From positions 1 to 40,403 of the forward strand of contig JAFPGC010000005.1 in assembly GCA_017423025.1 (NCBI GenBank): DNA of 40,403 nt. Direction: 5' to 3'. The translations under genes were made by a program, and so were the position numbers. The notes under the pieces were generated by a model. The model searched no databases, had not been told where the DNA came from, and saw only the letters and a list, made by a program, of their open reading frames with translations. Position 1 is the first letter of the stretch, and each line of letters opens with the position of its first letter. This stretch comes from Bacteroidales bacterium. Lineage in GTDB: Bacteria > Bacteroidota > Bacteroidia > Bacteroidales > UBA932. Below, in pieces: positions 4,620 to 20,058 of the stretch.

Positions 4620-7070
4620 TTAGTCCAGTTTGTTGTAGTATTGGAGGTAGGGCAGGACGTCGGGGGAAGTGATGTTGGAGGTGGTGATGTAGAACGCGGG
4701 CACGAACTGTCCCTGCTGGGAGTCGGCCAGCACGGCATCCACAGCCCTGCGGGCCATGGCGAAGGTGTTCTGCGCCATAATGCCCTGAAGGCACGTACCC
4801 CCGGCAATGAGTTCATCCAGGAAGTCTCCGTAGATATCAAAGGTATAGACGCGCTTGCCGGCGGCCTTGAGCGTGGCCAGCACGTCGACGAGGTTGCTGC
4901 CGTTGAAGAATACGAAATCATCGTAATCGCCGAGGGCAGCCTCCACTTCACTGACGGCCGATTCGGACACGGTAATCAGTTCGGTTTCGGGCTTCACCGT
5001 CATGAAGGCCTGGGCGCGTTCGACACCCGGGGTGTTCACCTTGGCAAAGGCAATCACCTTGTCGGCCGTCACATTCTCGGCCAGAGCCTTACCGGCAGCG
5101 GTGTTATCGGTGCCGATGAAGGGGCGGGAAGCCAGCGGGCTCGTGGTCGAAACGGGGACGTCGAGGATAATAACGGGGATGCCGCGTTCACTGGCCAGGG
5201 CGGCCACCTCTTCCTCGGCACTTTGTCCGTCAGGCCCATAGCAGGGCGCGAAAATGATTCCCTTCAGCGCATCCTCTCTACACCTGCTCAGTTCTTCCAC
5301 GGCGGCAATCTGCTCATAATAAGCGTTATCGGCCGATGTGGAGCTGTAATACGCATTGAATCCCTTGTCCTGGCAGATACTGCGGAACGCGGTCTCTATC
5401 TGACGCCAGTAATCGATCTGCCCGCCTTTTGCGATGAGCGCGATGCCGGGCACCAGGGTCATTTCGAAGGTGACGGTGAAAGGTTCCCCGCCAGGGTTCT
5501 GGCGCAGGGCGGTCCAGTTCATCTTGTCATCGTCGATGTCAATTTCCCACCACTCGCGGTATTCCTCGCCGTTGTCTACCCAGCGGGTGCAGAGGAGGTT
5601 GCCATCCACGAAGTACTCGTTCAGCGTATTCTGGCTGGGCACCCATTTGCCCTCGTTGTTCTGGACATAGTAAATAAAGTTACCGTCTTCCGTATACGCC
5701 CAGCGATGTAACTTTCCGTCGTCGAATTCAGAACCCTCGCTGGTGCAGCGGCCCTCCCACATTCCGATGATGGCAGAGCGAAAATCGGCCTCGACCTTCT
5801 TGAACCGAACGACCTGCCAATTTTCTTCGGGTCTATCCTCGCCATGATTGGTCCAGCGCCGGAAATTACAAATCATCTCAGTGTCGTTGATGCCCGTGAT
5901 GATATACTCGTTGACAAGAGTGGTGTTCTCATTAACCTGGCGGGTGAGAGTCACCTTGTTGCCTTTAATCTGGACTTCATACTCCTGGTCGTTGTTCCAT
6001 ATTGTTCTGGAGCTGCGCGTTTCACGCGACATGCTGACGGTGGCCAGAGTCGTGGAGTAGAAAGTGGTAACAGTTTTTTTGTTGGTAAGCGTGGGAGCGC
6101 CGTCGGTCTCGACCTGCATCCACTTGCCGATAATCTTCTGGGCCACGTTAAGGTCGGGAACCCGCTTGCCGTAGAATTCGAGGAAGGGCTGAGCCTCTTC
6201 AGCATCGAGGGTGGCGGTGGTGATGTAGAAAGTCGGAACCATCACACCTTGTTTGGAACTGGATAGCACGGTCTCCACGGCCTTGCGGGCCATGGCGAAG
6301 GTATTCTGGGCCATCACGCCCCTGAGGCACGGGCTTCCTGCAATCAGTTCATCCAGGAACTCGCCATACACATCGAAGGTGTAGACGCGCTTACCGGCGG
6401 CCTTTAGCATGGGGAGGGCGTCCATGAGGTCGTTACCATTGAAGAATACGAAATCGTCGTATTTGTCCAGCACGGCCTTCACTTCGTCGACGCAAGTATC
6501 ACCCACACGGAAGACCTCGGCGTCGGGCTTCAGGGCCTTGAAAGCCGTGGCGCGCTCGATGCCCGGGCTGTTGATCAGGGCGAAAGCAGCCACTTTATCG
6601 GCCTTAACCACCTTGGCCATTGCCTCGCCGGCGGCGGCATTGTCCGTGCCGACATAGGGGTAAGAAGCCAGCGGGCCGTTGGCCTTGACGGGGGAATCGA
6701 GGATGACGACGGGAATACCCCGCTCCTGGGCCAGGGCGGCTACTTCGGCCTCGGCGTTCTCCCCATTGATTCCATAAGCAGGCGCGAAGATGATGCCTTT
6801 CAGCGCTTTCCGTCCCACTCTGCGAAGTTCTTTAACGGCAGCCAGTTGCTCCTGGTAGGCCGTCTCCGAGGACGTGCAATAATAATAGGCCTCGAGACCC
6901 TTCTCCTGGCAGGTGCTGCGGAACGATGTCTCTATCTGGCGAAAATACTCAATACTGCCATTCTTTACAATCATGGCAATGCCCTCGGGGTCGCTGGAGG
7001 GTCTTTCTTTGTTGTCGCATGCGGTGAAAGCAAGCAATGCAACGGTCAGGATCCAGAAAAGTTTTTTCAT
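4620..7070 (-). CDS. Lipoprotein with two ribose-type binding domains flanking two lipocalin-like domains
   Basis: An 816-residue predicted lipoprotein (C18). Residues 30-303 form a type 1 periplasmic-binding domain of the ribose/LacI kind (KGIIFAPAYG, VGTDNAAAGEAMA, DDFVFFNG, VYTFDVYG). Residues 542-816 repeat that domain with well over half of positions identical. Between them, residues 306-426 and 429-540 are two short beta-rich lipocalin-like units, each starting with an IGKW or IGMW motif. Ordinary binding proteins of this class have one domain and a partner ABC transporter; here there are two domains in one chain and no permease in the window. A bivalent surface or periplasmic receptor or scavenging protein is an inference. 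Its first 38 codons are duplicated in the gene at 2124-2525. Confidence 0.85.
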   Translation of the reverse strand: MKKLFWILTVALLAFTACDNKERPSSDPEGIAMIVKNGSIEYFRQIETSFRSTCQEKGLEAYYYCTSSETAYQEQLAAVKELRRVGRKALKGIIFAPAYGINGENAEAEVAALAQERGIPVVILDSPVKANGPLASYPYVGTDNAAAGEAMAKVVKADKVAAFALINSPGIERATAFKALKPDAEVFRVGDTCVDEVKAVLDKYDDFVFFNGNDLMDALPMLKAAGKRVYTFDVYGEFLDELIAGSPCLRGVMAQNTFAMARKAVETVLSSSKQGVMVPTFYITTATLDAEEAQPFLEFYGKRVPDLNVAQKIIGKWMQVETDGAPTLTNKKTVTTFYSTTLATVSMSRETRSSRTIWNNDQEYEVQIKGNKVTLTRQVNENTTLVNEYIITGINDTEMICNFRRWTNHGEDRPEENWQVVRFKKVEADFRSAIIGMWEGRCTSEGSEFDDGKLHRWAYTEDGNFIYYVQNNEGKWVPSQNTLNEYFVDGNLLCTRWVDNGEEYREWWEIDIDDDKMNWTALRQNPGGEPFTVTFEMTLVPGIALIAKGGQIDYWRQIETAFRSICQDKGFNAYYSSTSADNAYYEQIAAVEELSRCREDALKGIIFAPCYGPDGQSAEEEVAALASERGIPVIILDVPVSTTSPLASRPFIGTDNTAAGKALAENVTADKVIAFAKVNTPGVERAQAFMTVKPETELITVSESAVSEVEAALGDYDDFVFFNGSNLVDVLATLKAAGKRVYTFDIYGDFLDELIAGGTCLQGIMAQNTFAMARRAVDAVLADSQQGQFVPAFYITTSNITSPDVLPYLQYYNKLD
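4623..5447 (-). repeat. Binding-domain duplication, second copy
   Basis: Encodes residues 542-816 of the double binding-domain lipoprotein. It is homologous along its whole length to 6162-6983, sharing QIETxFRS, ALKGIIFAP, AAGKRVYTFD and MAQNTFAMAR. The copies differ at many codon positions, so the duplication is not recent. Confidence 0.85.
6162..6983 (-). repeat. Binding-domain duplication, first copy
   Basis: Encodes residues 30-303 of the double binding-domain lipoprotein and is the partner of 4623-5447. The two copies are separated by coding sequence for the pair of lipocalin-like units. Confidence 0.85.
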
Positions 7071-7121: not shown

Positions 7122-9482
7122 TTACCTCAGCTGAAGGGTCGTGCGGTAGCAGAACGGGCATGTATCCTCGGTGTATCCGGCATGGTCACACTCGCCGAAG
7201 GCAACCTGCGGACGTTCGTGTACGTAGTTCCACCAACTGAGGTTGATGGTCACATTCTCGACGCCACCAACATTTGGCGAATAGGTCCAAAGCCTCATGC
7301 CTTTGCCGATGTAGATGCGTTCCCAGCCGGCCCAGCCTATGTGGCAGCCATCAGAATGTGAGGAGTGGTAGGCACCAATGGCACCGCTCCATGGTCCACA
7401 GTAATTTGGATCGCCGTGAGCATCTACGCGGCCGCCGGAAATTCCAAGTACACCGAAGGTGGCATCCTGACCAGCACCGATGCCGACGCCGTAGCCCTTG
7501 CCTTCTGCGTAAACAGTGCCGCCGTGGATTTCAATTGTTCCTGAGTTGATGTCCGTACCGTATTCCTCGCCGGTGCCGATGCCCGCAGCATCCATGCCGC
7601 CGTATGCGTGAACGTTACCACCATATATTTTGATGTTGTTGACATTGCCGTTCTGTCCGCTGCCGATACCAGCGCCGTAGCCGTCGTTGCTGCTACCGTC
7701 ATATTTTTTGCCACCATAGGCATAGACTGTGCCGCCATAGATGTTGATATCGCCGCTGTCGCCGTCCTCGCCGCCGCCGATACCTGCGCCGTCGTTACCA
7801 GCGTAGGCATTCACCGTGCCGCCGTAGATATTGATGGCTTCAATATGACTTTTGTCGCCGCCGCCGATGCCTGCCGCAGCCATGGCGCCCTGAGCAATGA
7901 CAGTACCGCCATAGATATTAACTACACCAACGCCTTTGGGGGCTGTTTCGCAGTTACCGATACCAGCCGAGTCTGCACCGCCGTAGGCCCTGACTGTGCC
8001 GCCGTAGATGTTAATCTCAGACGGTGCAGTTTTCGTACCGCCGCCAATACCTGGTGCATCACTACCCGTAGCAGTGATGTCACCACCGTAGATGTCGATT
8101 ATCGGGGTTTTTGAATCAGCATAAGAGCCGCCAATAGCAGCAGAATAACTATCGGCTTCTGCACTGAAAGTGCCGCCATAAAAGACAATCCTTTTCAGGT
8201 CATAATGATAAAATCCTGTGCCCATACCAGCTGAACCAATAACGGGATTAGATGGCCAAGGTTCTGCCGTCAAATTACCACCATGAATCTCGACGGTACC
8301 GCCACTCTCCCCAGGAGTATGGACATCATAACTACCAGGACCAATGCAGGGAGTAGCGCTTTCTTTTGTGAGGTGGAGCCTGCCCGTTCCAAGTGCCTGA
8401 CCGAAGATACGCACCGTGGTTCCCTCGCCGTTTACCTTAATACTGCCTGTTTCAATATAGGCGCCGTCGCAAAGGACGATGTTCAGCGTTTTGCCTTTCT
8501 CAACATACAAATTAACATCGTTTATATCATGTTCGCCAGCTACGTACCAGGTGCCGGACAGGGCGAACGTTTTATCCTCATTATCAATATCATTCAAACA
8601 GCCCTGCGCTGGCTCGTAAACCAATTCTGAAACAACTTCGCTGCCGTTCCATGAATGACGGATGTAGTAAATCTCATTGCTGCTTGGAATCAGCGACACG
8701 GTGATAGGATACATTTTGCCGGCTTCGAGCGTCTTGCCGTTTACCTTCTTCTCAACAATGTCGGTGCCTATAAGGGTAAAAGTCAGGTTGGCATTGTTCA
8801 CAGGCAGCATAGCCAAATAGATGGTAGAGAGCGACGATGGCGTAACGTTGTATGTGTTCGTGCCGTCGCTGACGCTGAAGGACGAGAGGGAGCTGGTGAC
8901 GTCGTTGCCGCTGATACTCCTGACGGTGAACTTACAGATGGCAAGCTGGTTGCCCAGTTTTTTGCCTTCCGGAAGAGCGGTGCCGTCCCATTCGCCTGAC
9001 CAGAAGCAATAGTCCAAGTTTTTAGAAAGGGATTCCAGAGTACCGTCCTGCGTGGAGATATTTGCCATCGTGCCGTCATCGTTGGCCATAACAGCAGGAT
9101 AGACATATTTGATTGTTCCTGCCTTCGGATTATCAAGTGTCACGGTGAAACTTGCCGACTTGCTGCCGTCTGCTATGTCGTCTTCCGTCAAAGCCACACT
9201 CACTGCCTTCACCGTCTCGTCGCTGGAGTTGGTGTAGATTACAGCTATCTGCTCGCCTGGGGCAAAGGTCTTCACGCCGTTTTCAGTCAGCGCACGAGTC
9301 TCGTCGCCGTCCATACTGATGGTAGTCTTGAGGGTTACTATGCCGCTGTCTTTCACGCCCTGCTGCTGCTCTTCCTCAAAGACGCTGTTATCGCGGGAGC
9401 AGCTGGTCATCGTTGCGCCCACAAGTGCGAGGGCAGCCATGCTAAGACAGATAGTCTTTCTCATTGTTTTGCTCGTCTTCAT
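7122..9482 (-). CDS. Mosaic surface lipoprotein B (fimbrillin-like + beta-helix + Cys/His ribbon)
   Basis: A 786-residue predicted lipoprotein. I start it at the ATG at 9482 (MKTSKTMRK); longer versions overlap a real small gene in another frame, and this start follows that gene's stop by 7 bp. The signal peptide ends MTSC (C28). Residues about 45-285 are a fimbrillin-family-like domain (FAPGEQIAVIY, TIKYVYPAVMANDDGTM, NQLAICKF) closely related to that of D. The centre holds about ten beta-helix repeats such as INIYGGTVNAYAGNDGAGIGGG. The C-terminus has CxH...CPFC, four possible metal ligands, shared with C. Fimbrillins build or cap Bacteroidales pili; here the domain may only be a surface anchor. 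Confidence 0.85.
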   Translation of the reverse strand: MKTSKTMRKTICLSMAALALVGATMTSCSRDNSVFEEEQQQGVKDSGIVTLKTTISMDGDETRALTENGVKTFAPGEQIAVIYTNSSDETVKAVSVALTEDDIADGSKSASFTVTLDNPKAGTIKYVYPAVMANDDGTMANISTQDGTLESLSKNLDYCFWSGEWDGTALPEGKKLGNQLAICKFTVRSISGNDVTSSLSSFSVSDGTNTYNVTPSSLSTIYLAMLPVNNANLTFTLIGTDIVEKKVNGKTLEAGKMYPITVSLIPSSNEIYYIRHSWNGSEVVSELVYEPAQGCLNDIDNEDKTFALSGTWYVAGEHDINDVNLYVEKGKTLNIVLCDGAYIETGSIKVNGEGTTVRIFGQALGTGRLHLTKESATPCIGPGSYDVHTPGESGGTVEIHGGNLTAEPWPSNPVIGSAGMGTGFYHYDLKRIVFYGGTFSAEADSYSAAIGGSYADSKTPIIDIYGGDITATGSDAPGIGGGTKTAPSEINIYGGTVRAYGGADSAGIGNCETAPKGVGVVNIYGGTVIAQGAMAAAGIGGGDKSHIEAINIYGGTVNAYAGNDGAGIGGGEDGDSGDINIYGGTVYAYGGKKYDGSSNDGYGAGIGSGQNGNVNNIKIYGGNVHAYGGMDAAGIGTGEEYGTDINSGTIEIHGGTVYAEGKGYGVGIGAGQDATFGVLGISGGRVDAHGDPNYCGPWSGAIGAYHSSHSDGCHIGWAGWERIYIGKGMRLWTYSPNVGGVENVTINLSWWNYVHERPQVAFGECDHAGYTEDTCPFCYRTTLQLR

Positions 9483-9489
9483 GGGTAAA

Positions 9490-9627
9490 TTACCAGATTT
9501 GTTCGTCCTGTAAGATGTAGTCATCCACGCTTTCGCTTGATGTTGTGAGTGGACTTCCACTCATAATGTGCAACGGATTCACTTCGATGACAACCATCGC
9601 CGGTTTCTCGTAATAAACCTTGTTCAT
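9490..9627 (-). CDS. Small Trp-ended peptide preceding lipoprotein B
   Basis: A 45-residue ORF beginning MNKVYYEKPAMVVIEV and ending QDEQIW. It has no signal peptide or membrane segment. It shares the pattern YE-x-P-x3-V-x-E-V near its start, an acidic C-terminal half and a terminal Trp with the 44-residue ORF at 14266-14400. Both sit immediately before a fimbrillin-type lipoprotein, here 7 bp before the ATG. Conservation of sequence and position in two loci argues that it is translated. The role is unknown; translational coupling, a chaperone-like partner or a secreted peptide are all possible. Confidence 0.7.
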   Translation of the reverse strand: MNKVYYEKPAMVVIEVNPLHIMSGSPLTTSSESVDDYILQDEQIW

Positions 9628-9673: not shown

Positions 9674-11857
9674 TTACTTCAGCTGAAGGGTGTATGAGTG
9701 GCAGTATGGGCAGTTCGTTATGTCGTATGCTCCGTCTACGTGGTTGCATTCACCGAAGGCAACCCAAGGACGCTGGTGAACGAAGTCCCACCAGTTCTCC
9801 GTGTAGTGCACATTCTCCCAGTACCCGTTGTAGGGCGAGTAAGTCCAGAGCCTCATGCATGCGCCGATCCAGATGCGCTCCCAGCCGGCCCAGCCAATGT
9901 GGCAGCCATCCTCATGTTCCTCGTGGTAGGCGCCGATGCCGCCGCTCCAGTTGCCGCAGTCGCTGCCGGCATGGGCTTCCACGTAACCACCGGAAATTCC
10001 AATTACGCCGAAGGTGGCGTCCTCGCCGGCACCAATGCCGGCACCATAGCCCTTGCCATAGGCATAGACCTTGCCGCCGTAGATTTCGATTGTGCCCGAG
10101 ATGATGCCGTCCCTTTCATATTCCTCGCCTGTGCCGATGCCCGCTGCATCCTCGCCGCCGTAGGCTGTCACATCGCCGCCATAGATTCTGATGGTGCCGA
10201 CGCTGGCGTCCTGTCCGCTTCCGATGCCTGCGCCGTAGCCACCGCCTTTAGCGTAGACCCTGCCGCCATGGATTTCAATTGTGCCCGAGTTGATGCCTTG
10301 TATTCTATATTCCTCGCCTGTACCAATGCCCGCCGCATCCATGCCGCCGTAGGCCTCGATATCGCCACCCTTGATGATGATTTTGTTGACGCTACCGTCC
10401 TGTCCGCTGCCGATGCCCGCGCCGTAGCCGTTGCTGCTGCTGCCGTCGGGGTTGCGGCCGCCGTAGGCACGGACGACACCACCAAAGATGGTGATGTAAA
10501 CGCTGTCGCCATCCTCGCCGCCACCGATGCCGGCGCCATCGTTACCGGCGTAGGCATTCACCGTACCACCGTGTATATAGACATCAACATAATTTCTGTC
10601 GCCGCCGCCGATGCCGGCAGCCCCCATGCCACCCCTGGCAGTGACAGTGCCGCCGAAGATATAAACGCCACCACCGTCCCTGGGGGCACCTTCACGGTTA
10701 CCAATACCTGCTCCGCCACTGCCTCCGTATGCCCGGACCGTGCCACCGTAGATGCTGATTGATAAGTTATCACTCGAGTAGCCGCCGATGCCTGCGTCAT
10801 TATCAAGGCTCCGGGCGGTGATGTCGCCGCCGTAGATGTCAATTGTCGGGATAACTGAATGATAAAAATGACCTCCGATGCCGGCAGCGTCGCCTTTTAG
10901 ATTCAAAGTGCCTCCGTAAATGGCAATTCTTTTCAAATCATAATGCGTAAGCATTACAGCATAGTTACCGATGGCGGGGTTCTGATCCGAATCGTCTTGT
11001 GTCAAATTACCACCATGAATCTCGATTACACCGCCACTGTCAGCATTCTGACCACCTGGGCCAATGCTGGGAGCATCAATCTCATCATTGATGTGGAGTT
11101 TGCCCGTTCCAAGCTCCTGCGCGAAGATGCGCAACGTGGTGCCCTCGCCGTTTACCATGATATTGCCCGTTGTAAGGCTGGCGCCGTCGCAAAGGACGAT
11201 GTTCAGCGTTTTGCCTTTCTCAACATATAAAACGACATCGTCGATATCATGTTCGCCAGTGACATACCAGGTGCCGGACAGGGTCCGATCATCCTGTGAC
11301 TCATCAATATGATTCAGACAGCCTTGTGGTTTCTCCACGACCGTCTCCTTCACCAACTGGAGGCCGTCCCACGTGTAGCAGACGTAAGCGATTTCGTCGC
11401 TGACGGAGTTGGCCCCCTGCCAGTCGGCGTAGAGCTGGTCCACCAGCGTCTTCTGCTCCTCCGTAGCCCTTTGCCAGGTCTTGCCCTGCGCAGTCAGTTT
11501 GCCGTCGGCGTAAGAGAGAATCTGCGTCATGTTGTTCTCGTCGCCCTTCACGGTCACCGTGTTGCCGCTGATGGTGTAGTGTAGCGCGCCTTTATCACGG
11601 ACGGAAGTAGCCTTCACATACTTATTGCCGTCCAGCTGGTAGCTCTCGTAGTAGCCCGTGCCGTCGGACAGGAACTGGTAGTCCTCCACCGTGCGCGTCC
11701 ACGTACGGTCGCCGTCCGTGCCGCTGTCGGCATTGTCTGCCACCCAGAGCCCCTGCAGCGTCTCAGGCGTCAGTTCACCCACTTTAATATTATCTTCCTT
11801 GTTGCAGGCGATGAGCGCAAACAATACTGCAATTATTATCCAGAATGGTTTTTTCAT
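9674..11857 (-). CDS. Mosaic surface lipoprotein C (lipocalin-like + long beta-helix + Cys/His ribbon)
   Basis: A 727-residue predicted lipoprotein (MKKPFWI..., LIAC with C18, then NKED, similar to acidic surface-export signals of Bacteroidetes lipoproteins). Residues about 30-145 are the lipocalin-like domain shared with A (TWTRTVEDYQF, DGTGYYESY). From about 220 to 630 it has the longest AGIG-type beta-helix of the set, including a 63-residue tandem duplication. The C-terminus (GECNH...CPYC...YTLQLK) matches B. From about residue 165 on, B and C are close relatives, whereas their N-termini are unrelated. This points to recombination at the domain border. Likely an exposed binding or adhesin protein; ligand unknown. 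Confidence 0.85.
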   Translation of the reverse strand: MKKPFWIIIAVLFALIACNKEDNIKVGELTPETLQGLWVADNADSGTDGDRTWTRTVEDYQFLSDGTGYYESYQLDGNKYVKATSVRDKGALHYTISGNTVTVKGDENNMTQILSYADGKLTAQGKTWQRATEEQKTLVDQLYADWQGANSVSDEIAYVCYTWDGLQLVKETVVEKPQGCLNHIDESQDDRTLSGTWYVTGEHDIDDVVLYVEKGKTLNIVLCDGASLTTGNIMVNGEGTTLRIFAQELGTGKLHINDEIDAPSIGPGGQNADSGGVIEIHGGNLTQDDSDQNPAIGNYAVMLTHYDLKRIAIYGGTLNLKGDAAGIGGHFYHSVIPTIDIYGGDITARSLDNDAGIGGYSSDNLSISIYGGTVRAYGGSGGAGIGNREGAPRDGGGVYIFGGTVTARGGMGAAGIGGGDRNYVDVYIHGGTVNAYAGNDGAGIGGGEDGDSVYITIFGGVVRAYGGRNPDGSSSNGYGAGIGSGQDGSVNKIIIKGGDIEAYGGMDAAGIGTGEEYRIQGINSGTIEIHGGRVYAKGGGYGAGIGSGQDASVGTIRIYGGDVTAYGGEDAAGIGTGEEYERDGIISGTIEIYGGKVYAYGKGYGAGIGAGEDATFGVIGISGGYVEAHAGSDCGNWSGGIGAYHEEHEDGCHIGWAGWERIWIGACMRLWTYSPYNGYWENVHYTENWWDFVHQRPWVAFGECNHVDGAYDITNCPYCHSYTLQLK
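9992..10369 (-). repeat. Tandem duplication of a 189 bp beta-helix unit
   Basis: Units 10181-10369 and 9992-10180 each encode 63 residues. Each runs from GGD through YGGxDAAGIGTGEEY, SGTIEI, GYGAGIG to the next GG. Protein B has a single copy at the equivalent place, so this is an in-frame gain in C or a loss in B that changes the length of the helix. Confidence 0.8.
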
Positions 11858-11879: not shown

Positions 11880-14249
11880 TTAATCTACATTGTGGACCAG
11901 GCGTACCAACTTGCCCAGGTGACGGTTGGCGTAACCTTCAGGTATTTCGTCCGCTTTCAGGTCAGATAAATCAAAGTACAGGCCGTAAGCCTTATAACTC
12001 TTTTCACCGGTTATGGACCAATAGTAGCCGTTGTAGTTTTCATTACTGATGCTGAGACCACTGCGGGAACCGGCAACGGGCAGGAACAGGGCGCCGTCGG
12101 CTTCCATCGCAGCCCAATTATCGTTGCTCACGTTCTTAAATCCCTCCATACCCGGTATGAAGCCCGTGGCCGAGGTCATTCCGTCGGGCAGGACAATCAC
12201 ACCATTCATACCATGCACCTGGGCAGCACCATAGGTGTGGTGGTCAAACAGGTATTTCCACTCATCCCTTGAGAGCGTGTACCAGTCGTAACCTCTGTGG
12301 ATTGGATTGGCCAATTCGGACTCCTTGCTAAAGTCACCATGGCCGCTGTATTCGCTTGCGGTGGTGCTTTGCTTGTTGGGCGTGGGTGAGTCACCTGTCC
12401 AAGTACTCCAACCGAAGTGGTTAGTCCATGAGTCATTGCTGGTGTTAGTGGTCCTGTCCCACTGATTCTCAGCGAACCGCCATTTGTAGGTGGCTTCAGT
12501 AGCCTTGTACTGCAGCACGCCCGGCGAGAAGATGACCTTTTTGCCGCTGCCGTTGACGGTGAATGTGCCTTGGTATGGCGTCAGCGTCCACGTGTCGCCG
12601 GAGATGACGACATCCAAGCCGCCATATCTGCCTGACACCATCGGGTCGGGCGACCATGCAGAACCGTTGTATGCGATGTAACATCCAAAGGTCACATTGC
12701 CAATACTACTATTATGACCGGCACCGATGGGAACGGCGTTTTCAAAGCCGGCCTCTGTTCCTCCCTTCGTAGCAGTCACGCTGGTTATACCTCTTGTGAT
12801 AGTAATGTTTTTTCCTGTATCTTTTTGGTTATAGCCATTTCCAATTCCAGCGGCACCATTACCACCAGTAGCATTGATGATACCACCGCTGATAATAATA
12901 TTTGCGAAGGTATCATAATAATCATGACTTCCACCGCCTATGCCGGCAGCACCCCATCCGCCAGTGGCAGTAATGTTACCGCCAGTGATGGTGATGGTGT
13001 TACATCTTGACCATTCGTCGGCACCAATGCCTGCGGAACCAGTGGCACCTGAGGCTTCAATGATGCCACCCTCGATGGTGATGTTGCCACTTCCGGGGTA
13101 TGTGTTATTATATCCACCGCCAATGCCGCCACTGTACAATCCGTATGATTTGGCCGTCAGTTTGCCCGTATTGCCCTGGATGGTGAGCGTCGTATTATAA
13201 TCACCAGCATGCAGAGCATTCCTATGTTGTACTTCTGCTGTGGTCAGCGTGTTTGTCGTGCCGTCGGCCAGAACAACGGTGGCACTGCCCAGGCATTTGA
13301 TTGCATCGTAAGCGGTGCTGTGGATGGTCACATTGTTGAGTGTCACGGTGGCGTTGTCATTAATGATGATCTGATGGTTGCCGACAAGTGTTCCGGTCAG
13401 CGTTTCGCCGTCCTGCACCGTGTAGTCGGTCACTATTTTCGAGAGATTGACGGTCGAATTCTGAACCATTGACAGGTTGATGGGATACATTTTGCCGGCC
13501 GCCAGTGCCTTTCCCGATACGGTCTTCTCATAATAATGCGACCCGTCGGTGGCTGCAAAAACGATGTCGCCGGTAGTGACGGGCAGCATGGCCACATAGA
13601 TAGGGCCTTCAGCAGCCGTGCGAACAATGCGATACACGTCCGAACCGTTTTCCACATAAAGGCCGGTAACGTTGCCGGTGATGTCCGTACTGCCGTCCTT
13701 GATGGTGAACTTGCAGATGGCAAGCTGGTTGGTAAGCGTTTCGCCTCCGGGCAGCGAAGTGCCATCCCAGCTGCCAGTCCAGTAGCTGTAGTCCAGATTG
13801 CCGGACAGAGAGGACAGCGAACCGTCCTGTGCAGCGATGGAAGCCATTGTCCCGTCGTCATTGGCCATGGCAGCCGGATAAACGTAGGAGATGGTTCCCG
13901 CTTCTGGATTCTCCAGCACCACGGTAAATGTCGCTGTCTTGTTCTCTTGAGCGCCCGTTCCGGAAATGTCGCCGGCTGTCAGGGCATAGCTTGTGGCTTT
14001 CACCGTCTGGTCGCTGGTGTTCTTATAAATAACGGCAATCTGCTCGCCCTCGGCAAAGGTCTTCACACCGGCGGCGGTCAGGGCCTTGGTGGACTCACCC
14101 AATCCGATGGTGGTGGTCATCGTAACAATATTCTCCTTCTGCTTGGGTTGCGTATTCTCTTCCAGCTTGTTGCAACCCAGCATGATAGCGCCCACTGCTA
14201 CGAAGGCGGCTATGCTCAGATTTTTCATGGTCTGTTTCATGGCTTTCAT
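11880..14249 (-). CDS. Mosaic surface lipoprotein D (fimbrillin-like + beta-helix + C-type-lectin-like)
   Basis: A 789-residue predicted lipoprotein. ATGs at 14249, 14240 and 14228 are all possible; the lipobox is IMLGC (C26 from the first). Residues about 40-285 are a fimbrillin-like domain closely matching that of B (GVKTFAEGEQIAVIY, VYPAAMANDDGTM). Residues about 290-510 are beta-helix repeats (GGIIEASGATGSAGIG). From about 545 onward is the FISUMP/C-type-lectin-like domain (FTVNGSGKKVIFSPGVLQY...YYWS...LVRLVHNVD) shared with A. It lies 16 bp after a small Trp-ended peptide gene and 22 bp before C, consistent with one transcript. Confidence 0.85.
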   Translation of the reverse strand: MKAMKQTMKNLSIAAFVAVGAIMLGCNKLEENTQPKQKENIVTMTTTIGLGESTKALTAAGVKTFAEGEQIAVIYKNTSDQTVKATSYALTAGDISGTGAQENKTATFTVVLENPEAGTISYVYPAAMANDDGTMASIAAQDGSLSSLSGNLDYSYWTGSWDGTSLPGGETLTNQLAICKFTIKDGSTDITGNVTGLYVENGSDVYRIVRTAAEGPIYVAMLPVTTGDIVFAATDGSHYYEKTVSGKALAAGKMYPINLSMVQNSTVNLSKIVTDYTVQDGETLTGTLVGNHQIIINDNATVTLNNVTIHSTAYDAIKCLGSATVVLADGTTNTLTTAEVQHRNALHAGDYNTTLTIQGNTGKLTAKSYGLYSGGIGGGYNNTYPGSGNITIEGGIIEASGATGSAGIGADEWSRCNTITITGGNITATGGWGAAGIGGGSHDYYDTFANIIISGGIINATGGNGAAGIGNGYNQKDTGKNITITRGITSVTATKGGTEAGFENAVPIGAGHNSSIGNVTFGCYIAYNGSAWSPDPMVSGRYGGLDVVISGDTWTLTPYQGTFTVNGSGKKVIFSPGVLQYKATEATYKWRFAENQWDRTTNTSNDSWTNHFGWSTWTGDSPTPNKQSTTASEYSGHGDFSKESELANPIHRGYDWYTLSRDEWKYLFDHHTYGAAQVHGMNGVIVLPDGMTSATGFIPGMEGFKNVSNDNWAAMEADGALFLPVAGSRSGLSISNENYNGYYWSITGEKSYKAYGLYFDLSDLKADEIPEGYANRHLGKLVRLVHNVD

Positions 14250-14429: not shown

Positions 14430-16820
14430 TTATTTCTTGATGAACTCTGCCGGGCCCGTGTGGTAAAGGTTGCCAAAATGGGCGGCGTTCACCACGCGGG
14501 CATGGGAGCCCAGCGTGTGTTGGGCGCAATAGAGGTAGAGGTCACGGTAGGTGATGTCCGGGGTCTCGGTGATGGCCGTCACGAAGTTCTGCGTGAAGCG
14601 GTCGCTCATCCAGAACGAGCCGGTGGGATTCCAATTATCGGCCCAGGACTGTTCCTGGGCGTTGGCGCCGGTCATGGCAAGCACGCCGGGGATGCCTTCG
14701 AGGTCCGTTACCACGCACTCGGCATAGCAAGGTTCGGCCACAATGAGAAGCTTACGGAAAGCCTTTTCGCTCTGCATGGCCGCGACGGTCTCGAGCAGGA
14801 CTTGGGCGGTGACGCCCTGGTGGTGGGGTGTCTCACGCCACTGGAATTCATTGGCACCGCCGTGATTCAGGCTGCGGCCGTGTCCGCTCCAGTAAAGGAA
14901 TACGTTGTGGCCGGCACCGGGCGGGACCACCACGGGCAGTTTGTCGCTGCGCTGGCCCTTGAGAATGCTCATGACATCGTCAGACGTAAGCTTTGCGGCG
15001 TCGTAGTCAATTTTGACACCCGACATGAGGTCCGGGCCATCCTCCGTGGCACGGATGGTGCCGGGCTCAGGGTTCTTCGCATCATCGGCCACGGAACGGT
15101 CGGCGATGAGGATGATATGGTCGTCGTCAAAGCCGTTGCGCTTGAGCTGCTGATAGACGCTGAGAACATCGGAGAGGTGACGGTAGTTCTTGAACTCCGT
15201 ACTGGCATGCACCAGCAGGGCGTACTGCCCGGTAAGCGGCACGTAATCGATGCCGGCATCCTGATCCTGCGCCTGCTGGGCGAAGCGCTGCTGGGCTACG
15301 TTCTCGTCGTATAGATACTTCCATGCCACAGTGGCCTCACCGGTACGGTGGTTGCCCTTGGAGCTGAAGTAGCGGATTTTATTGATTTTGCCTCCCAGAA
15401 TCTGCCAGTGTACATAGGTGGTACCGGAAGCGGCGGCGCAACTCTCGGCGTCGAAGGCAATGTTGCCCGAGGCTCCACGGAACTGCGGAACCTGACCCTT
15501 ATCAAGCTGGCTCAGGTAAAGCTGCATGGCGGTAGCATTCCAGATGGTAGCGCTCAGGCTGGCGTCGGTATTGGGAAATGTGAGTTCGTAGATAGCCTGG
15601 TTGAAAGCAATGTTCCGCTCCATGTTATCCTCAGACTCCGGTTTATTCTCCACGGCCATCTTATGGCAGGCGAGTCCGGCCAGCAGAAGGCCGTCGTAGA
15701 ACTTGCACTCCTCGAAGGTGGGGCTGACGCCAAAGTGCCCCTCATAGCTCATTTCGAATCCCGTAGTAGGGTCGGCATAGGGAGAGAAGCCTTGGGTTTC
15801 TTCGAGGACAGCGATCATTCGGTCGGTCAGGGCGTCGATTTCCTCCTGGCTGAAGTCGCTGAAAGCGAACCATGTGCGACGCATGGACTCTATCTGGGTG
15901 GCCAAGCCGTCGAACACCGGGTCATCGGCATGTATGTCGTCAGGTAAACCGTAACTTTCGCGTATATCCCAGAAATCGAGGTACCACGCGCGGCGCAGGG
16001 CGACCACCCTAACCAGTTGATCGATGTTCTCGATGACGCAGAAAGAGCTTTGGGCCAGTGAGGACAGGTCGTCAAACGGCTTATAAAGAATGGACTCCAT
16101 CTCCTCAAGCAGATAGCTGGTGGAGATGTACTGCTTATTGTCCGCAATGGTGATACCCAGGTTCTCGGCCTGGAAGGGTGTCCAGTCGAAGAAGGTTTTG
16201 CCATAAACGTTGTCCGGCGACAGGACGTAGGCCGAGGGAACCAGGAAGTACAATTGTTGCATGAGGGTGGCATAGGCCGTCATCATAACCTCGGTAAAAG
16301 CCACGTCGCTCTCTGTGAGCGACCAGAGGAAGGGGCGCACGTCTCGCGTACCGGTTTGCGTAGGCACGGCATAGCGGCGGATGATTTCCTCGCTGGTGGC
16401 CGTGGGTGCTATGAGCGGCTTCTCGGTCTGCTGACAGGCCCGGGCAAAGACATCCAGGTTTTTGCTGTTGAAGGGACCCACGATGGCCACCACGCTGGTA
16501 TCGTTGGCCAGTTTCTCACTCAGGGTTTCCAGGTTGGCGGTGAGTTCGTCATACCAGTCCAAGTGCAGGCGCACGCAGACGTCCGTAGCGAGCTGGGCCT
16601 CCTGATAGTTGTCCAGAAACCACTGGGCCGTGCGCTCCAGCTGCGCCTTGGTAATGGAGTTGCGGTTGGGATAGACCACCGCCACCTTCTTGTCCACCCA
16701 CCGGTGCTGCGTCTTATAAACAATCTTGTCCTCCTCTTTCGAGCAGGCGGCAAGCAACATCAGGCATGATGCACACAACCACATCAGCCATCTTGCATCT
16801 GACATCTTACCTCTTTTCAT
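14430..16820 (-). CDS. Lipoprotein fusing a type 1 ligand-binding domain to a legumain-family (C13) cysteine protease
   Basis: A 796-residue predicted lipoprotein (lipobox LAAC, C26, followed by SKEED). Residues about 44-480 form a type 1 binding domain of the LivJ/ANF-receptor kind (VAVVYPNRNS, VVAIVGPFNSKN, KPLIAPTATSEEI). Residues about 530-790 are peptidase C13: YALLVHAS, then NYRHLSDVLSVYQQLKRNGF and DDDHIILIAD, the hallmark legumain region. The presumed catalytic His647 is in YWSGHGRS and Cys698 in IVAEPCYAE. Legumains cleave after Asn or Asp. The combination suggests a membrane-tethered protease controlled by ligand binding, which is inference. It overlaps the BMP-like lipoprotein gene by 14 bp, so the two are probably translationally coupled. 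An ATG at 16805 is an alternative start. Confidence 0.88.
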   Translation of the reverse strand: MKRGKMSDARWLMWLCASCLMLLAACSKEEDKIVYKTQHRWVDKKVAVVYPNRNSITKAQLERTAQWFLDNYQEAQLATDVCVRLHLDWYDELTANLETLSEKLANDTSVVAIVGPFNSKNLDVFARACQQTEKPLIAPTATSEEIIRRYAVPTQTGTRDVRPFLWSLTESDVAFTEVMMTAYATLMQQLYFLVPSAYVLSPDNVYGKTFFDWTPFQAENLGITIADNKQYISTSYLLEEMESILYKPFDDLSSLAQSSFCVIENIDQLVRVVALRRAWYLDFWDIRESYGLPDDIHADDPVFDGLATQIESMRRTWFAFSDFSQEEIDALTDRMIAVLEETQGFSPYADPTTGFEMSYEGHFGVSPTFEECKFYDGLLLAGLACHKMAVENKPESEDNMERNIAFNQAIYELTFPNTDASLSATIWNATAMQLYLSQLDKGQVPQFRGASGNIAFDAESCAAASGTTYVHWQILGGKINKIRYFSSKGNHRTGEATVAWKYLYDENVAQQRFAQQAQDQDAGIDYVPLTGQYALLVHASTEFKNYRHLSDVLSVYQQLKRNGFDDDHIILIADRSVADDAKNPEPGTIRATEDGPDLMSGVKIDYDAAKLTSDDVMSILKGQRSDKLPVVVPPGAGHNVFLYWSGHGRSLNHGGANEFQWRETPHHQGVTAQVLLETVAAMQSEKAFRKLLIVAEPCYAECVVTDLEGIPGVLAMTGANAQEQSWADNWNPTGSFWMSDRFTQNFVTAITETPDITYRDLYLYCAQHTLGSHARVVNAAHFGNLYHTGPAEFIKK

Positions 16821-17904
16821 ACTCTTCCTCCTTTCTGATGGCGTCCTCGTGAATCTGCCGGCGCATTTCCTCGGTGAGATAGGTCTCTATAAAAGGTTTA
16901 TAATAGTCATCAATATTGGGATTAATCTTCACGCCGGTGTAGCCTTCTTTCAGTCCTAATACCTGATGCCTGGGCATGCCTTCCGGCGAGAGCCACTGGC
17001 CGATGCAGAGCCCAACGGCGCGGTCGATATGCTTGAGGATGGACATATCGCAGTTCCAGGAGAACTTCTCTACGTCTATCCCCATATAATCGTTAATATT
17101 TGTGATTTCGCAGAGATACATCATGGTGTAGCCGGCACCACCGCAGATGGGGACAATGGTGCCGCTGGCCTCGCTGATGATGCGGAGGGCCGTGGTATCG
17201 GCAATGTTATAACCCTGACCGGAATGCTCGGCTAAATAGATGGTTTCGAGATGCTTTTCCCACGGCACCAGATACGTATCATCGTATTCGACCTTGTAGT
17301 AGTCGGTATAGAAGCCGTCGGAGAAACCCTTGGCAGCCCCGGCCACCGTCAGGTCCTCGGGATTGGAGATGATCAGTGTGGCATGATCGCTGATGGCTGG
17401 CCAGAGGGCGCCGCCTTCGTACATGGCCCCGTAATAGGGCAGATAGAGCGTGGAGCCGCCGGAAGCGAGAGGCTCCGGTGTCTCCAGGTACAGGAGGTCG
17501 GCGTAGGGATTGCCGTCGAAGACGGAACTGTTCTGGCGAATGTAACCGTCATAGCCCGCCGCAGCTACGATATACAGGTGGGGAATGGTGTCCCTGTTGC
17601 TTTTGACCGTCTGGAACATGTTCTCCAGATAGTCCCTGCCTTCCTCGTAGCTGGTGGGCGACAGTTCTACGGTACGCAGGCCGTGCTCTGTAGCGGCCTC
17701 TTCCACTCCCAGGTAAATAAGATCGTTGTAGGAGCGGTCGCCCAAACCGTCTTGGCCGTAAATCACGGTGACGATGGGGGCTGTGCTGGCCATGGGCTCA
17801 TCGGGGTCCGGCACGTAGATGATGTTTCCCGCCTTGGTACAGGCAGAGAGCATCATCACGACGGAGAGCCCGGCAGTTAATAATATCCAGATTGACTTTT
17901 TCAT
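16807..17904 (-). CDS. BMP/PnrA-like substrate-binding lipoprotein
   Basis: A 365-residue predicted lipoprotein, lipobox LSAC with C22. The mature part resembles the basic membrane protein (BMP, PnrA/TmpC/Med) family of type 1 binding proteins: a first strand VTVIYGQDGLGDRSYNDL like the family's DxSFN motif, then IYLGVEEA, and the later AAKGFSDGF. Family members bind nucleosides for ABC import or act as regulators, but no permease or ATPase is nearby. The gene starts in an ATGA overlap with the AraC-type regulator upstream and ends inside the receptor-protease gene. The three genes look like one coupled unit, so a sensor role is more likely than transport (inference). Confidence 0.8.
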   Translation of the reverse strand: MKKSIWILLTAGLSVVMMLSACTKAGNIIYVPDPDEPMASTAPIVTVIYGQDGLGDRSYNDLIYLGVEEAATEHGLRTVELSPTSYEEGRDYLENMFQTVKSNRDTIPHLYIVAAAGYDGYIRQNSSVFDGNPYADLLYLETPEPLASGGSTLYLPYYGAMYEGGALWPAISDHATLIISNPEDLTVAGAAKGFSDGFYTDYYKVEYDDTYLVPWEKHLETIYLAEHSGQGYNIADTTALRIISEASGTIVPICGGAGYTMMYLCEITNINDYMGIDVEKFSWNCDMSILKHIDRAVGLCIGQWLSPEGMPRHQVLGLKEGYTGVKINPNIDDYYKPFIETYLTEEMRRQIHEDAIRKEEEYEKR

Positions 17905-18272
17905 AGGCCCTTATTTTTCTGACGATATTCGGTAGGGGTCATTCCGAAGCGGTGTTTGAACTGGTCCCGGAAAGTGGCAAGGGTGAGACCAACGCTTTCG
18001 GAAATGTCCGTGAAAGACATTTCCGGGTGTTCATGCAACAGGCGCACAGCTTCCTCCATCCGCAGGGAATTGATGTACGCGGTGACGGACTGCCCATCGG
18101 CATGGGCCGACATCAGTGCGCACAAGTTGCGACGGGTAAGGCCGAACCGGCCCAGGATATCACGTCGCTGGAGGTTGGGATCGGTGTAGAGTCTCTGGGT
18201 CCGGATGAGCTCATCCATCTGCCGGAAAAACTCCTCGCCGGGCACTCCCCTGTCTGTGGTTTTACTGCTCAT
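17901..18272 (-). CDS. Free-standing AraC-type DNA-binding protein
   Basis: A 123-residue protein made almost only of the two helix-turn-helix units of the AraC/XylS family. The signature stretch is near residues 86-117 (MSFTDISESVGL, FRDQFKHRFGMTPTEYR). No ligand-binding or membrane part is present. Residues 18-119 are roughly 60-65% identical to the C-terminal 100 residues of the membrane-anchored regulator just upstream (18364-20010). It is therefore a duplicated, detached DNA-binding domain. The 91 bp leader holds two strong inverted repeats, and the gene overlaps the BMP-like lipoprotein by ATGA. It probably controls this cluster, perhaps through the same sites as its parent. Confidence 0.88.
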   Translation of the reverse strand: MSSKTTDRGVPGEEFFRQMDELIRTQRLYTDPNLQRRDILGRFGLTRRNLCALMSAHADGQSVTAYINSLRMEEAVRLLHEHPEMSFTDISESVGLTLATFRDQFKHRFGMTPTEYRQKNKGL

Positions 18273-18363: not shown

Positions 18364-20010
18364 TTAGAGTTTTTGGCGGTATTCGGTGGGAGTCATTCCG
18401 AACTGGCGCTTGAACTGGTCACGGAAGGTGGAAGGGGTGAAACCCACATTTTCGGCAATTTCCGTGAGAGACATCTCCGGGGCCTCCCGCAGCAGGCGGA
18501 CAGCGTCCTCCAGACGCATGGCGTTGATGTAAGCGGTAAAGGACTGCCCTTCGGCATGGACGGCCAGGAGGTCGCTTAGGGTGCGGCGGCTGATGTCGAA
18601 ACGGTCCAGGATATCCTGCCGCTGGAGGAACGCATCGGCATAGAGTCTCTCGCTACGGATAATTCCGTCAATGAGGCCGAACAGTTCGGGGTTGGCGGCG
18701 GGAACAGCGGATGCTTTCTGCTGGTTATCCTTGTCATTCCTCTTTCGCTGACGGGCGAAATAGATGGAGAAGGCCGCGGCCACCAGCAATAGCACCACCA
18801 CGGCGATGATGATGGCATCCTTCCGGGCCGATGCCTTCTGGGCGTCCCGGATCTTGCGGTCCTGCTCCTGGGCATGGTACTTGGCGGCTAATTCCTGGGC
18901 CTCGCTCTCCTGCAGCCGCCTGTTCAGTTCTTTCTGAAGGGCGGCGTAGCGGTTCATATAGTCCAGCGCCTCGGCCGTCTTTCCCTGGGCCGTAGCGGCA
19001 TCGGCCCTGTCCTTCAGGATGATGGTATAGTTTTCATTGAGTGTGTCGGCGCCCATCCGGGCTTCCATCTCATCGTAAATGGAGAGGAGTTTATCCCATT
19101 CTCCCAGTGCCTTCCAGGCGGAGGCAATCATCACGCGGCCACCATAACTCCTGCCATAGTCCGACTGCTCAAAGAGGGCCAGATACTTGCGGGATTCCTG
19201 GATATCAGGAGGGGTTTTGCGTGCATATGACCGGGCCAGGAAGCCCCAGGCCTGGGCCTTGTAGAACTTGCAGTAGCGCTTGCGGTCCTCCCCTATGGGC
19301 GGAAGGCGGAAACTGTCTTCGGCATAGGCCGAAGGGTGTTTTTCATATTCTTCCAGCTTAGACACGATGGCGGCGGCTTCCGGGATGATGGCTTCGAAGT
19401 TGCCGTCCTCATCCAGCACGGTAATCTTGCGTTTGCGGGCCACGATGCCGGCGTCCAGCCGGTCTACGCTGTGAGCACCTGCATCCAGGGCCTTGATAAC
19501 CTGATCCAACTTGGCCAGGCCCTCGTCGTGTCGGCCCAGATAAGTCATTACATTGCCTATCTCGGCCTCCATCCTCAGCGCTTCCGTCTCATGCCCCCAC
19601 TGACGGTTCAAATCGGCCAGCTGGGTGGCGTAAATGAGCCACTGCTCGTAGTCCCTCTTCTTACGGTAGGCGTCCATCATCAGCTGGAGTACGTTGCTGC
19701 GGTTGTCGACTGTGGAAACGGTGGTTGCACGGGTGGAATCCCGTTGCAACAGATCCTTGCACAGGGTGATGGCTTCGTCCAGACGATGGTCTGCCGGGGA
19801 GTGCGCATACACCTTGGCGCGGAGATAATCGGCCTCAAAGGCATCTACATTGCCCACGATGAGGGCCGAATCTATAATGGTAAGCGCCCGCTCCGGGTCC
19901 GACCCGTAGACGAGCATGGCGGCCCGGGCGGTGTAAACCGTGTCGGACGGCTGCGGAACATGCGCCAGGGCTGTGAGGAGAGCCCATATGCAGGCTAAAA
20001 GGATTCTCAT
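18364..20010 (-). CDS. Membrane-anchored TPR / AraC-type regulator
   Basis: A 548-residue regulator. The ATG at 20010 is preferred; the longer frame would begin with TTG inside the regulatory region. Residues 1-16 form a signal or anchor segment. Residues about 25-365 are helical TPR-like repeats, followed by a coiled-coil stretch. One membrane span lies at about 398-418 (IIAVVVLLLVAAAF), then a basic RQRKR stop. An AraC-type DNA-binding domain fills about 445-548. The layout places a TPR sensor in the periplasm and the DNA-binding domain in the cytosol, a one-piece transmembrane regulator of a kind common in Bacteroidetes. It heads the minus-strand lipoprotein cluster, which it probably controls. 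The signal sensed is unknown. Confidence 0.85.
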   Translation of the reverse strand: MRILLACIWALLTALAHVPQPSDTVYTARAAMLVYGSDPERALTIIDSALIVGNVDAFEADYLRAKVYAHSPADHRLDEAITLCKDLLQRDSTRATTVSTVDNRSNVLQLMMDAYRKKRDYEQWLIYATQLADLNRQWGHETEALRMEAEIGNVMTYLGRHDEGLAKLDQVIKALDAGAHSVDRLDAGIVARKRKITVLDEDGNFEAIIPEAAAIVSKLEEYEKHPSAYAEDSFRLPPIGEDRKRYCKFYKAQAWGFLARSYARKTPPDIQESRKYLALFEQSDYGRSYGGRVMIASAWKALGEWDKLLSIYDEMEARMGADTLNENYTIILKDRADAATAQGKTAEALDYMNRYAALQKELNRRLQESEAQELAAKYHAQEQDRKIRDAQKASARKDAIIIAVVVLLLVAAAFSIYFARQRKRNDKDNQQKASAVPAANPELFGLIDGIIRSERLYADAFLQRQDILDRFDISRRTLSDLLAVHAEGQSFTAYINAMRLEDAVRLLREAPEMSLTEIAENVGFTPSTFRDQFKRQFGMTPTEYRQKL

Positions 20011-20058
20011 TTCATTTGTCAAATTCGGAACTAAGTTAAGAAAAAACAATTATCCCAT

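Follow-up and report, generated by a model that had tools for sequence, protein, structure and literature searches.

Legumain-type cysteine proteases have been studied mostly in eukaryotes, and legumain itself is switched by pH and by a C-terminal control domain that governs its activation, as passages of PMC4357240 describe. An excerpt of a second source gives the legumain triad as Cys189-His148-Asn42, with Glu190 acting as a brake on activity and Ser215 as an aid to it (PMC9604545). For the ligand-binding domain of mGlu1, a passage of PMC2680970 reports that the amine of glutamate is bound by Thr188, Asp208, Tyr236 and Asp318 and its carboxylate by Ser165. Here we describe a gene whose product joins a binding domain and a protease of these two kinds in a single chain. 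It lies in a stretch of 40,403 nucleotides from a Bacteroidales bacterium (contig JAFPGC010000005.1 of assembly GCA_017423025.1), which we call the window, and it forms a two-gene unit with a gene for a second, BMP/PnrA-like binding protein.

A binding domain and a C13 peptidase in one lipoprotein

The two genes of the unit are the following:
14430..16820, minus strand: the fusion gene, a single open frame with an ATG start, encoding a lipoprotein of 796 amino acids.
16807..17904, minus strand: the partner gene, encoding a BMP/PnrA-like lipoprotein of 365 amino acids and overlapping the fusion gene by 14 bp.

The fusion chain begins with a signal peptide and the lipid-bearing Cys26, continues with a type 1 (LivJ/ANF-receptor) domain at about residues 45-475 and a linker at about residues 476-530, and carries a Peptidase_C13 domain from residue 532 to a match end at 776. 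Judged by profile matches, two domains stand in one chain and this architecture is conserved. An earlier note on this DNA, made from the letters alone, had named a LivJ/ANF-receptor-like N-terminus, a C13 domain and a lipoprotein signal, together with the motifs NYRHLSD, SGHG (His647) and EPC (Cys698). Each of these holds, the motifs occupying residues 545-551, 645-648 and 696-698.

The C13 match is strong (Pfam E=5.3e-40, 138 bits against a cutoff of 22.8), and it was found in 60/60 aligned fusion members; a C-terminus other than C13, which the note had named as one possible refutation, is not what we found. Among solved structures, phmmer returned legumain chains (E=1.7e-21) as well as plant asparaginyl endopeptidases and GPI transamidase, while a profile of the family reached legumain at 1.4e-40 and GPI transamidase at 1.7e-37, a small margin. 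Eleven positions (R547, H548, D551, S645, G646, H647, G648, E696, C698, E723 and S725) are invariant in all 60 members, including the His-Cys dyad. The catalytic His and Cys stand in clan CD order and, with N545 (Asn in 59/60 members, Asp in one), make up the triad N545/H647/C698. A catalytically dead C13 is ruled out on sequence by the invariant dyad and the near-invariant triad Asn. We take R547, H548, E696 and D740 to be the counterparts of Arg44, His45, Glu187 and Asp231 in the S1 pocket of legumain, and since the catalytic and most S1-type residues are kept, the active site looks intact. Cleavage after Asn or Asp is the likely preference.

Two features set the domain apart. The residue after the catalytic Cys, at the position of legumain Glu190, is Tyr or Phe in 60/60 members, and the chain ends at residue 796, 20 residues past the end of the C13 match. 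This leaves no room for a control domain of the legumain type, so that the protein is a C13 peptidase but, strictly speaking, no legumain. An Asn that might serve self-cleavage was sought in the linker (columns 470-534 of the 60 aligned members), and no column held Asn in half or more of them. Asp occurs in 38/60 members at position 476 and in 45/60 at position 531, where the window protein has Gly.

The binding domain gives weaker matches in the single sequence. In the window protein, ANF_receptor is matched at residues 91-146 (E=1.1e-4, 21.8 bits) and Peripla_BP_6 at residues 101-231 (E=0.0065, 16.6 bits), under their cutoffs of 25.4 and 31.7 bits, respectively. Relatives give clearer results: at E<=0.1, 51/60 match ANF_receptor (best 6.3e-13) and 37/60 match Peripla_BP_6 (best 1.8e-8). 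A profile of 64 N-terminal domains matches the LivJ-type structures 4gnr (6.7e-7) and 3td9 (3.5e-4), the match of the same profile to the taste receptor T1R3 being not significant (0.064). On the basis of what is known of these receptors and of the alignment with T1R3, we take T142, D172, Y206 and position 119 to correspond to Thr188, Asp208, Tyr236 and Ser165 of mGlu1. In the profile alignments T142 pairs with the Thr of the xAT (ATS) stretch; D172 is put on the SD position and Y206 on the YG position by the T1R3 alignment alone. T142 and D172 are each present in 64/64 domains and belong to just 13 invariant positions out of 430, and position 206 is Tyr in 61/64. Given those 13, the chance that at least two of the four contact positions would be invariant is about 0.005, a figure that leaves out Asp318 because its position could not be placed, and such positions may also be kept for structure. 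The conservation of T142 and D172, and mostly of Y206, favours an alpha-amino-acid-type ligand.

A conserved unit with a BMP-like partner

The partner gene lies directly upstream, and its end overlaps the start of the fusion gene. Where a locus extends 900 bases or more beyond the fusion gene on that side, we found a partner directly upstream of 83/88 fusion frames; the five that lacked it were those of L084, L098 and L108 and the two into which the gene of L099 is split. When proteins at least 95% identical were merged, the linkage was found in 74/78 clusters. Overlaps were measured in 76 pairs: they amount to 4-14 bp in 44 and to more in 28, the larger overlaps being partly due to use of the longest frame, and in the remaining 4 the genes are separated by 20-188 bp. 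Partner and fusion gene thus form a conserved two-gene unit.

The window partner itself has no Pfam match, and its assignment comes from relatives: Pfam Bmp (PF02608) is matched by 12/42 aligned partners (best 2.6e-7) and not by the other 30. A stretch of the form G-D-x-S-x-N-D aligns with 4pev (E 0.0045), that with TmpC being not significant (0.33), and the second half of the partner has no such match. Tandem partner and fusion pairs, two per locus and from different subfamilies, were seen in L025, L026, L047 and L066. At L099:7953-10400 the fusion gene is broken by a stop in that metagenome-assembled genome (MAG), and no partner was found upstream.

Lipoprotein signals and location

In the fusion protein the lipid Cys26 is followed by SKEED (CSKEED), which fits a surface signal of the K-(D/E)2 type. 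According to passages of PMC5080379, C-X-K-(D/E)2-X works best as a signal for surface export in Capnocytophaga, while for B. fragilis a consensus of SDDDD has been proposed. At least two acidic residues at positions +2 to +6 were counted in 68/82 fusion proteins and 37/64 partners, and a looser pattern of our own, resembling the lipoprotein export signal, in 53/82 and 5/64, respectively. The lipobox rule behind these counts dropped 11/93 fusion proteins and 12/76 partners, and the counts lean high because the most favourable Cys was chosen. By these signals the fusion protein is likely exposed on the cell surface, and exposure of the partner is doubtful. Because residues resembling an export signal follow the lipid Cys, our guess can be narrowed from the envelope, which the earlier note had named, to the cell surface.

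Distribution and selection

An initial search of 101 genomes, the window's own included, gave matches in 9, all of one genus. Across the window's taxonomic family the fusion was found at E<=1e-20 in 29/398 genomes, belonging to 5/25 genera. When the first family alignment was scanned against GTDB genomes, 387/393 pattern-matched stretches encoded fusion relatives, and the best 80 loci were kept for study; these best 80 of the 387 are 42-77% identical to the query across most or all of its length. Kept loci are labelled Bacteroidia, Bacteroidales, Bacteroidaceae, Prevotellaceae or genera among them, save for L077, labelled Oscillospiraceae, which has the fusion protein of L076 at 100% identity, and for L051, L065 and L111, whose record titles carry no group name. 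Many titles name gut compartments of goat, sheep, cattle, deer or buffalo.

This recurrence bears on whether chance or an assembly artefact joined two genes; an assembly error was among the possible refutations named in the earlier note. The window is a contig (C75) of a MAG of 88 contigs and 2.39 Mb that is 87% complete with 4.8% contamination, which would leave room for such an error. However, the architecture recurs throughout the best 80 of 387 relatives, nearly all in other assemblies, and the 95 fusion frames, found in 90 loci of which some share an assembly or are near-identical, fall into 84 clusters at 95% identity. Recurrence of the full architecture across other genomes rules out assembly error, and we give the artefact next to no credence.

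The fusion is under purifying selection. A rough Nei-Gojobori estimate on the 15 closest of 523 filter-passing pairs (1770 in all) gave ratios of nonsynonymous to synonymous divergence of 0.08-0.35 for the whole chain; taken separately, the binding part had 0.06-0.39 and the protease part 0.04-0.43. In L075/L096 synonymous divergence was 0.09 in the binding part and 0.65 in the protease part, and in L110/L112 it was 0.64 and 0.11; these values suggest domain swapping between copies by recombination.

Beyond the family, PF01650 matched in 19/395 genomes of a phylum sample (17 over cutoff). The genome of the window alone gave a strong match, the best elsewhere in that sample being at E 2.3e-12; among control genomes, 1/14 had a match (Caulobacter vibrioides). 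Nine of the 21 other matches in the phylum were scanned for the same architecture, and 0/9 reached E<=0.001 for a domain of the type 1 binding kind; 5/9 fit caspase C14 better than C13. Isolated tails of C13 genes, with the rest of the gene absent, were seen at L015:1501-1608 (genome G045, 36 codons) and L002:1501-1587 (the window's own genome, 29 codons). The G045 tail lies about 40 bases from a tRNA-Leu gene, and no tRNA gene was found near the L002 tail. Such tails may be what a deletion or a mobile element has left behind.

Proposed mode of action

The reading we put foremost, with slightly less than even confidence, is that the unit encodes an asparaginyl endopeptidase of the cell surface, which its flytrap controls or targets and which acts together with the BMP-like partner. 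The fusion protein would be an outer-membrane, probably surface-exposed, lipoprotein enzyme whose N-terminal Venus-flytrap domain closes on a small ligand with an alpha-amino-acid-type group. Opening and closing of the flytrap, alone or in complex with the BMP-like protein, would control or direct the C13 protease, and this legumain-type cysteine protease would cut after Asn (or Asp) in cell-surface proteins. The parts of this scheme that we infer are the surface location, the amino-acid ligand, the gating, the substrate with its Asn/Asp preference, and the complex with the partner. Absence of a C-terminal control domain fits an N-terminal domain that has taken over control. That ligand binding might gate proteolysis had been suggested in the earlier note, and some conserved amino-acid-contacting positions do favour a ligand.

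Several observations weigh against this scheme. The binding domain could equally recruit substrate without any gating. Its match to 4gnr is notable in the first lobe only (independent E 4.2e-4), later segments being collinear and weak (7 and 160). At position 119, where mGlu1 has the carboxylate-holding Ser165, 40 of the 64 domains have Asn, 23 have Ser and 1 has Asp; Asp318 is matched best, as judged by eye, by position 322, which varies (Asn in 23, Asp in 17 and Gly in 15 of the 64); and no equivalent of Lys409 could be placed. In the protease domain, D740 is Asp in 55/60 and Asn in 5/60 members, and Asn in 8/12 members of a more diverse alignment (A1); because this position varies, the Asn/Asp preference is perhaps not uniform across the family. 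Gln724 of the window protein stands in the phmmer alignment at what we take to be the Ser215 position of legumain, where the members of A1 vary among Gln, Met, Lys, Thr, Pro and Ser. Asn or Asp at that position reduced the activity of legumain, as an excerpt of PMC9604545 states. The surface signal of the partner itself is also weak.

We regard as unlikely a heteromeric surface flytrap pair, BMP-like plus LivJ-like, that would resemble class C receptors and in which an amino acid would switch on the fused legumain-type protease. If true, it would provide many ruminant-gut Bacteroidales with a ligand-gated extracellular Asn-specific protease, proteolysis replacing the transmembrane signal of class C receptors.

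Neighbouring genes and alternative explanations

Upstream of the unit the window carries two regulator genes:
17901..18272, minus strand: AraC-type (HTH_18) DNA-binding protein of 123 amino acids, overlapping the partner gene by 4 bp and resembling the C-terminus of the next product.
18364..20049, minus strand: AraC-type regulator of 561 amino acids with HTH_18 (Pfam) at its C-terminus; ahead of this lie a region with weak likeness to TPR/DUF6377 and a hydrophobic stretch that we read by eye as a membrane segment.

The unit could in principle be a signalling protease, the pair sensing an external ligand and cleaving a component that controls the upstream AraC-type regulator. The window's regulator genes overlap or abut the pair, and relatives of its TPR-AraC gene stand upstream of the pair in ten other loci. 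However, of 54 cases with at least 5 kb of upstream sequence only 14 had a same-strand gene with an AraC-type helix-turn-helix (HTH) no more than 6 kb upstream. The model used here was derived from the regulators of the loci themselves, and other regulator types would escape it. Moreover, an inner-membrane regulator would not easily be reached by a surface protease. We consider this explanation decidedly unlikely, and on the same count we reject, as a general rule, the idea that the module always includes an AraC regulator. The earlier note had reasoned from the two gene overlaps, both of which are present, to a dedicated sensing module of fusion, BMP-like protein and regulator; the BMP-like partner keeps its place in it, whereas the regulator does not outside a minority of loci.

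Further genes were recognized downstream of the fusion gene:
11880..14249, minus strand, and 9674-11857, 7122-9560 and 2552-4600: related lipoproteins with Beta_helix_3 matches, strong in 9674-11857 and 7122-9560 and weak in the other two.
4620..7070, minus strand: Peripla_BP_4 lipoprotein of 816 amino acids.

With the Peripla_BP_4 lipoprotein joining the flytrap and BMP-like genes, three type 1 binding-protein families occur in one gene run. This lipoprotein looks internally duplicated, with two binding-domain stretches, and the open reading frame at 2124-2525 (133 amino acids), whose first ~40 residues are common to it, looks like a truncated copy. A gap of 180 bp separates the fusion gene from the lipoprotein gene at 11880..14249, and the Beta_helix_3 lipoproteins are possible co-transcribed cargo; elsewhere, matches to them near the pair were found only in L034, L037 and L045. 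In genome G047, MACPF lipoproteins (L027:12388-14127 and L027:5093-6808) flank a copy of the pair. Such pore-forming neighbours were rejected as a general feature, no sequence-similar protein being found in the other loci examined as far as the search reaches.

Downstream genes vary among loci, the commonest downstream family following 15/93 fusion genes. In the loci compared, with domains assigned to family representatives only, no gene family besides the partner was constant as a neighbour, and there is thus no constant importer. Of eight neighbour-family representatives searched against Pfam, five had no match and three were Peripla_BP_4, a calcineurin-type phosphoesterase and BspA-like leucine-rich repeats; by eye, representatives of several of the commoner families look like lipoproteins.

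These neighbourhoods bear on two further explanations. In the first, surface peptide harvesting, the flytrap and the BMP-like protein would be capture subunits that retain substrates or products; the protease, a nutritional one, would be constitutively active and not gated. The tandem of two binding-type lipoproteins, the lipoprotein-like neighbours and the ruminant gut compartments in the record titles would suit such a role, which the lack of a constant importer does not. Moreover, the C13 peptidases studied so far are described, in passages of PMC4357240, as specific endopeptidases and not broad digestive ones. On balance we find harvesting somewhat unlikely.

The second is that the C13 domain is a maturation enzyme that cuts or re-joins adjacent lipoproteins by transpeptidation like that of legumain or GPI8, the flytrap recognising them or a small acceptor. 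GPI8 has ligation activity. Legumain ligates too (PMC9604545, in an excerpt). Tyr or Phe at the position of the braking Glu190 in every aligned member agrees with this idea, as do the variable downstream genes, several of them lipoproteins by eye. Yet the neighbours belong to many unrelated families, and among solved relatives the legumains are closer than GPI transamidase, albeit by the small margin seen with the family profile. We hold a maturation role to be quite unlikely.

Comparison with known systems

As a flytrap-controlled or flytrap-targeted endopeptidase, the reading we prefer, a bacterial C13 peptidase joined to a flytrap and accompanied by a second binding protein would offer a testable single-chain link from small-molecule sensing to proteolysis, probably at the surface of gut bacteria, and might find use as a ligand-controlled asparaginyl protease or ligase. 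In the open-licence literature of PubMed Central we found no description of a flytrap-C13 fusion among the matches listed, which does not prove its absence.

The partner resembles BMP/PnrA-like binding lipoproteins (PF02608) in the Pfam matches of 12/42 members and in the stretch that aligns with 4pev, and differs from them in the 30/42 unmatched members, the unmatched second half and the lack of constant transporter genes. The binding domain of the fusion is like other LivJ/ANF-receptor type 1 domains (Peripla_BP_6, ANF_receptor, the flytraps of class C receptors) in its profile match and partly conserved amino-acid contacts; unlike them, it is joined to a peptidase, has no constant transporter neighbour and, in the main subfamily, carries an insertion of about 40 residues before the core of the second lobe, as seen by eye in A1. 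Orthocaspases (C14) and the C11 peptidase of Parabacteroides (PMC4850288) are likewise bacterial cysteine peptidases of clan CD, some with accessory domains, but they belong to other families and are described as preferring basic residues.

With legumain (MEROPS C13, Pfam PF01650) the fusion shares the catalytic domain, the Asn-His-Cys triad and the R-H and E-x-C motifs. It differs in being a bacterial lipoprotein with an N-terminal flytrap and no C-terminal control domain, with Gln in place of Ser215 and Tyr or Phe in place of Glu190. In the coupling of a flytrap to an enzyme a parallel is found in the Venus kinase receptors, which passages of PMC2680970 describe as activated by amino acids; these are transmembrane tyrosine kinases of invertebrates, whereas here the flytrap is coupled to a protease in a bacterial lipoprotein.

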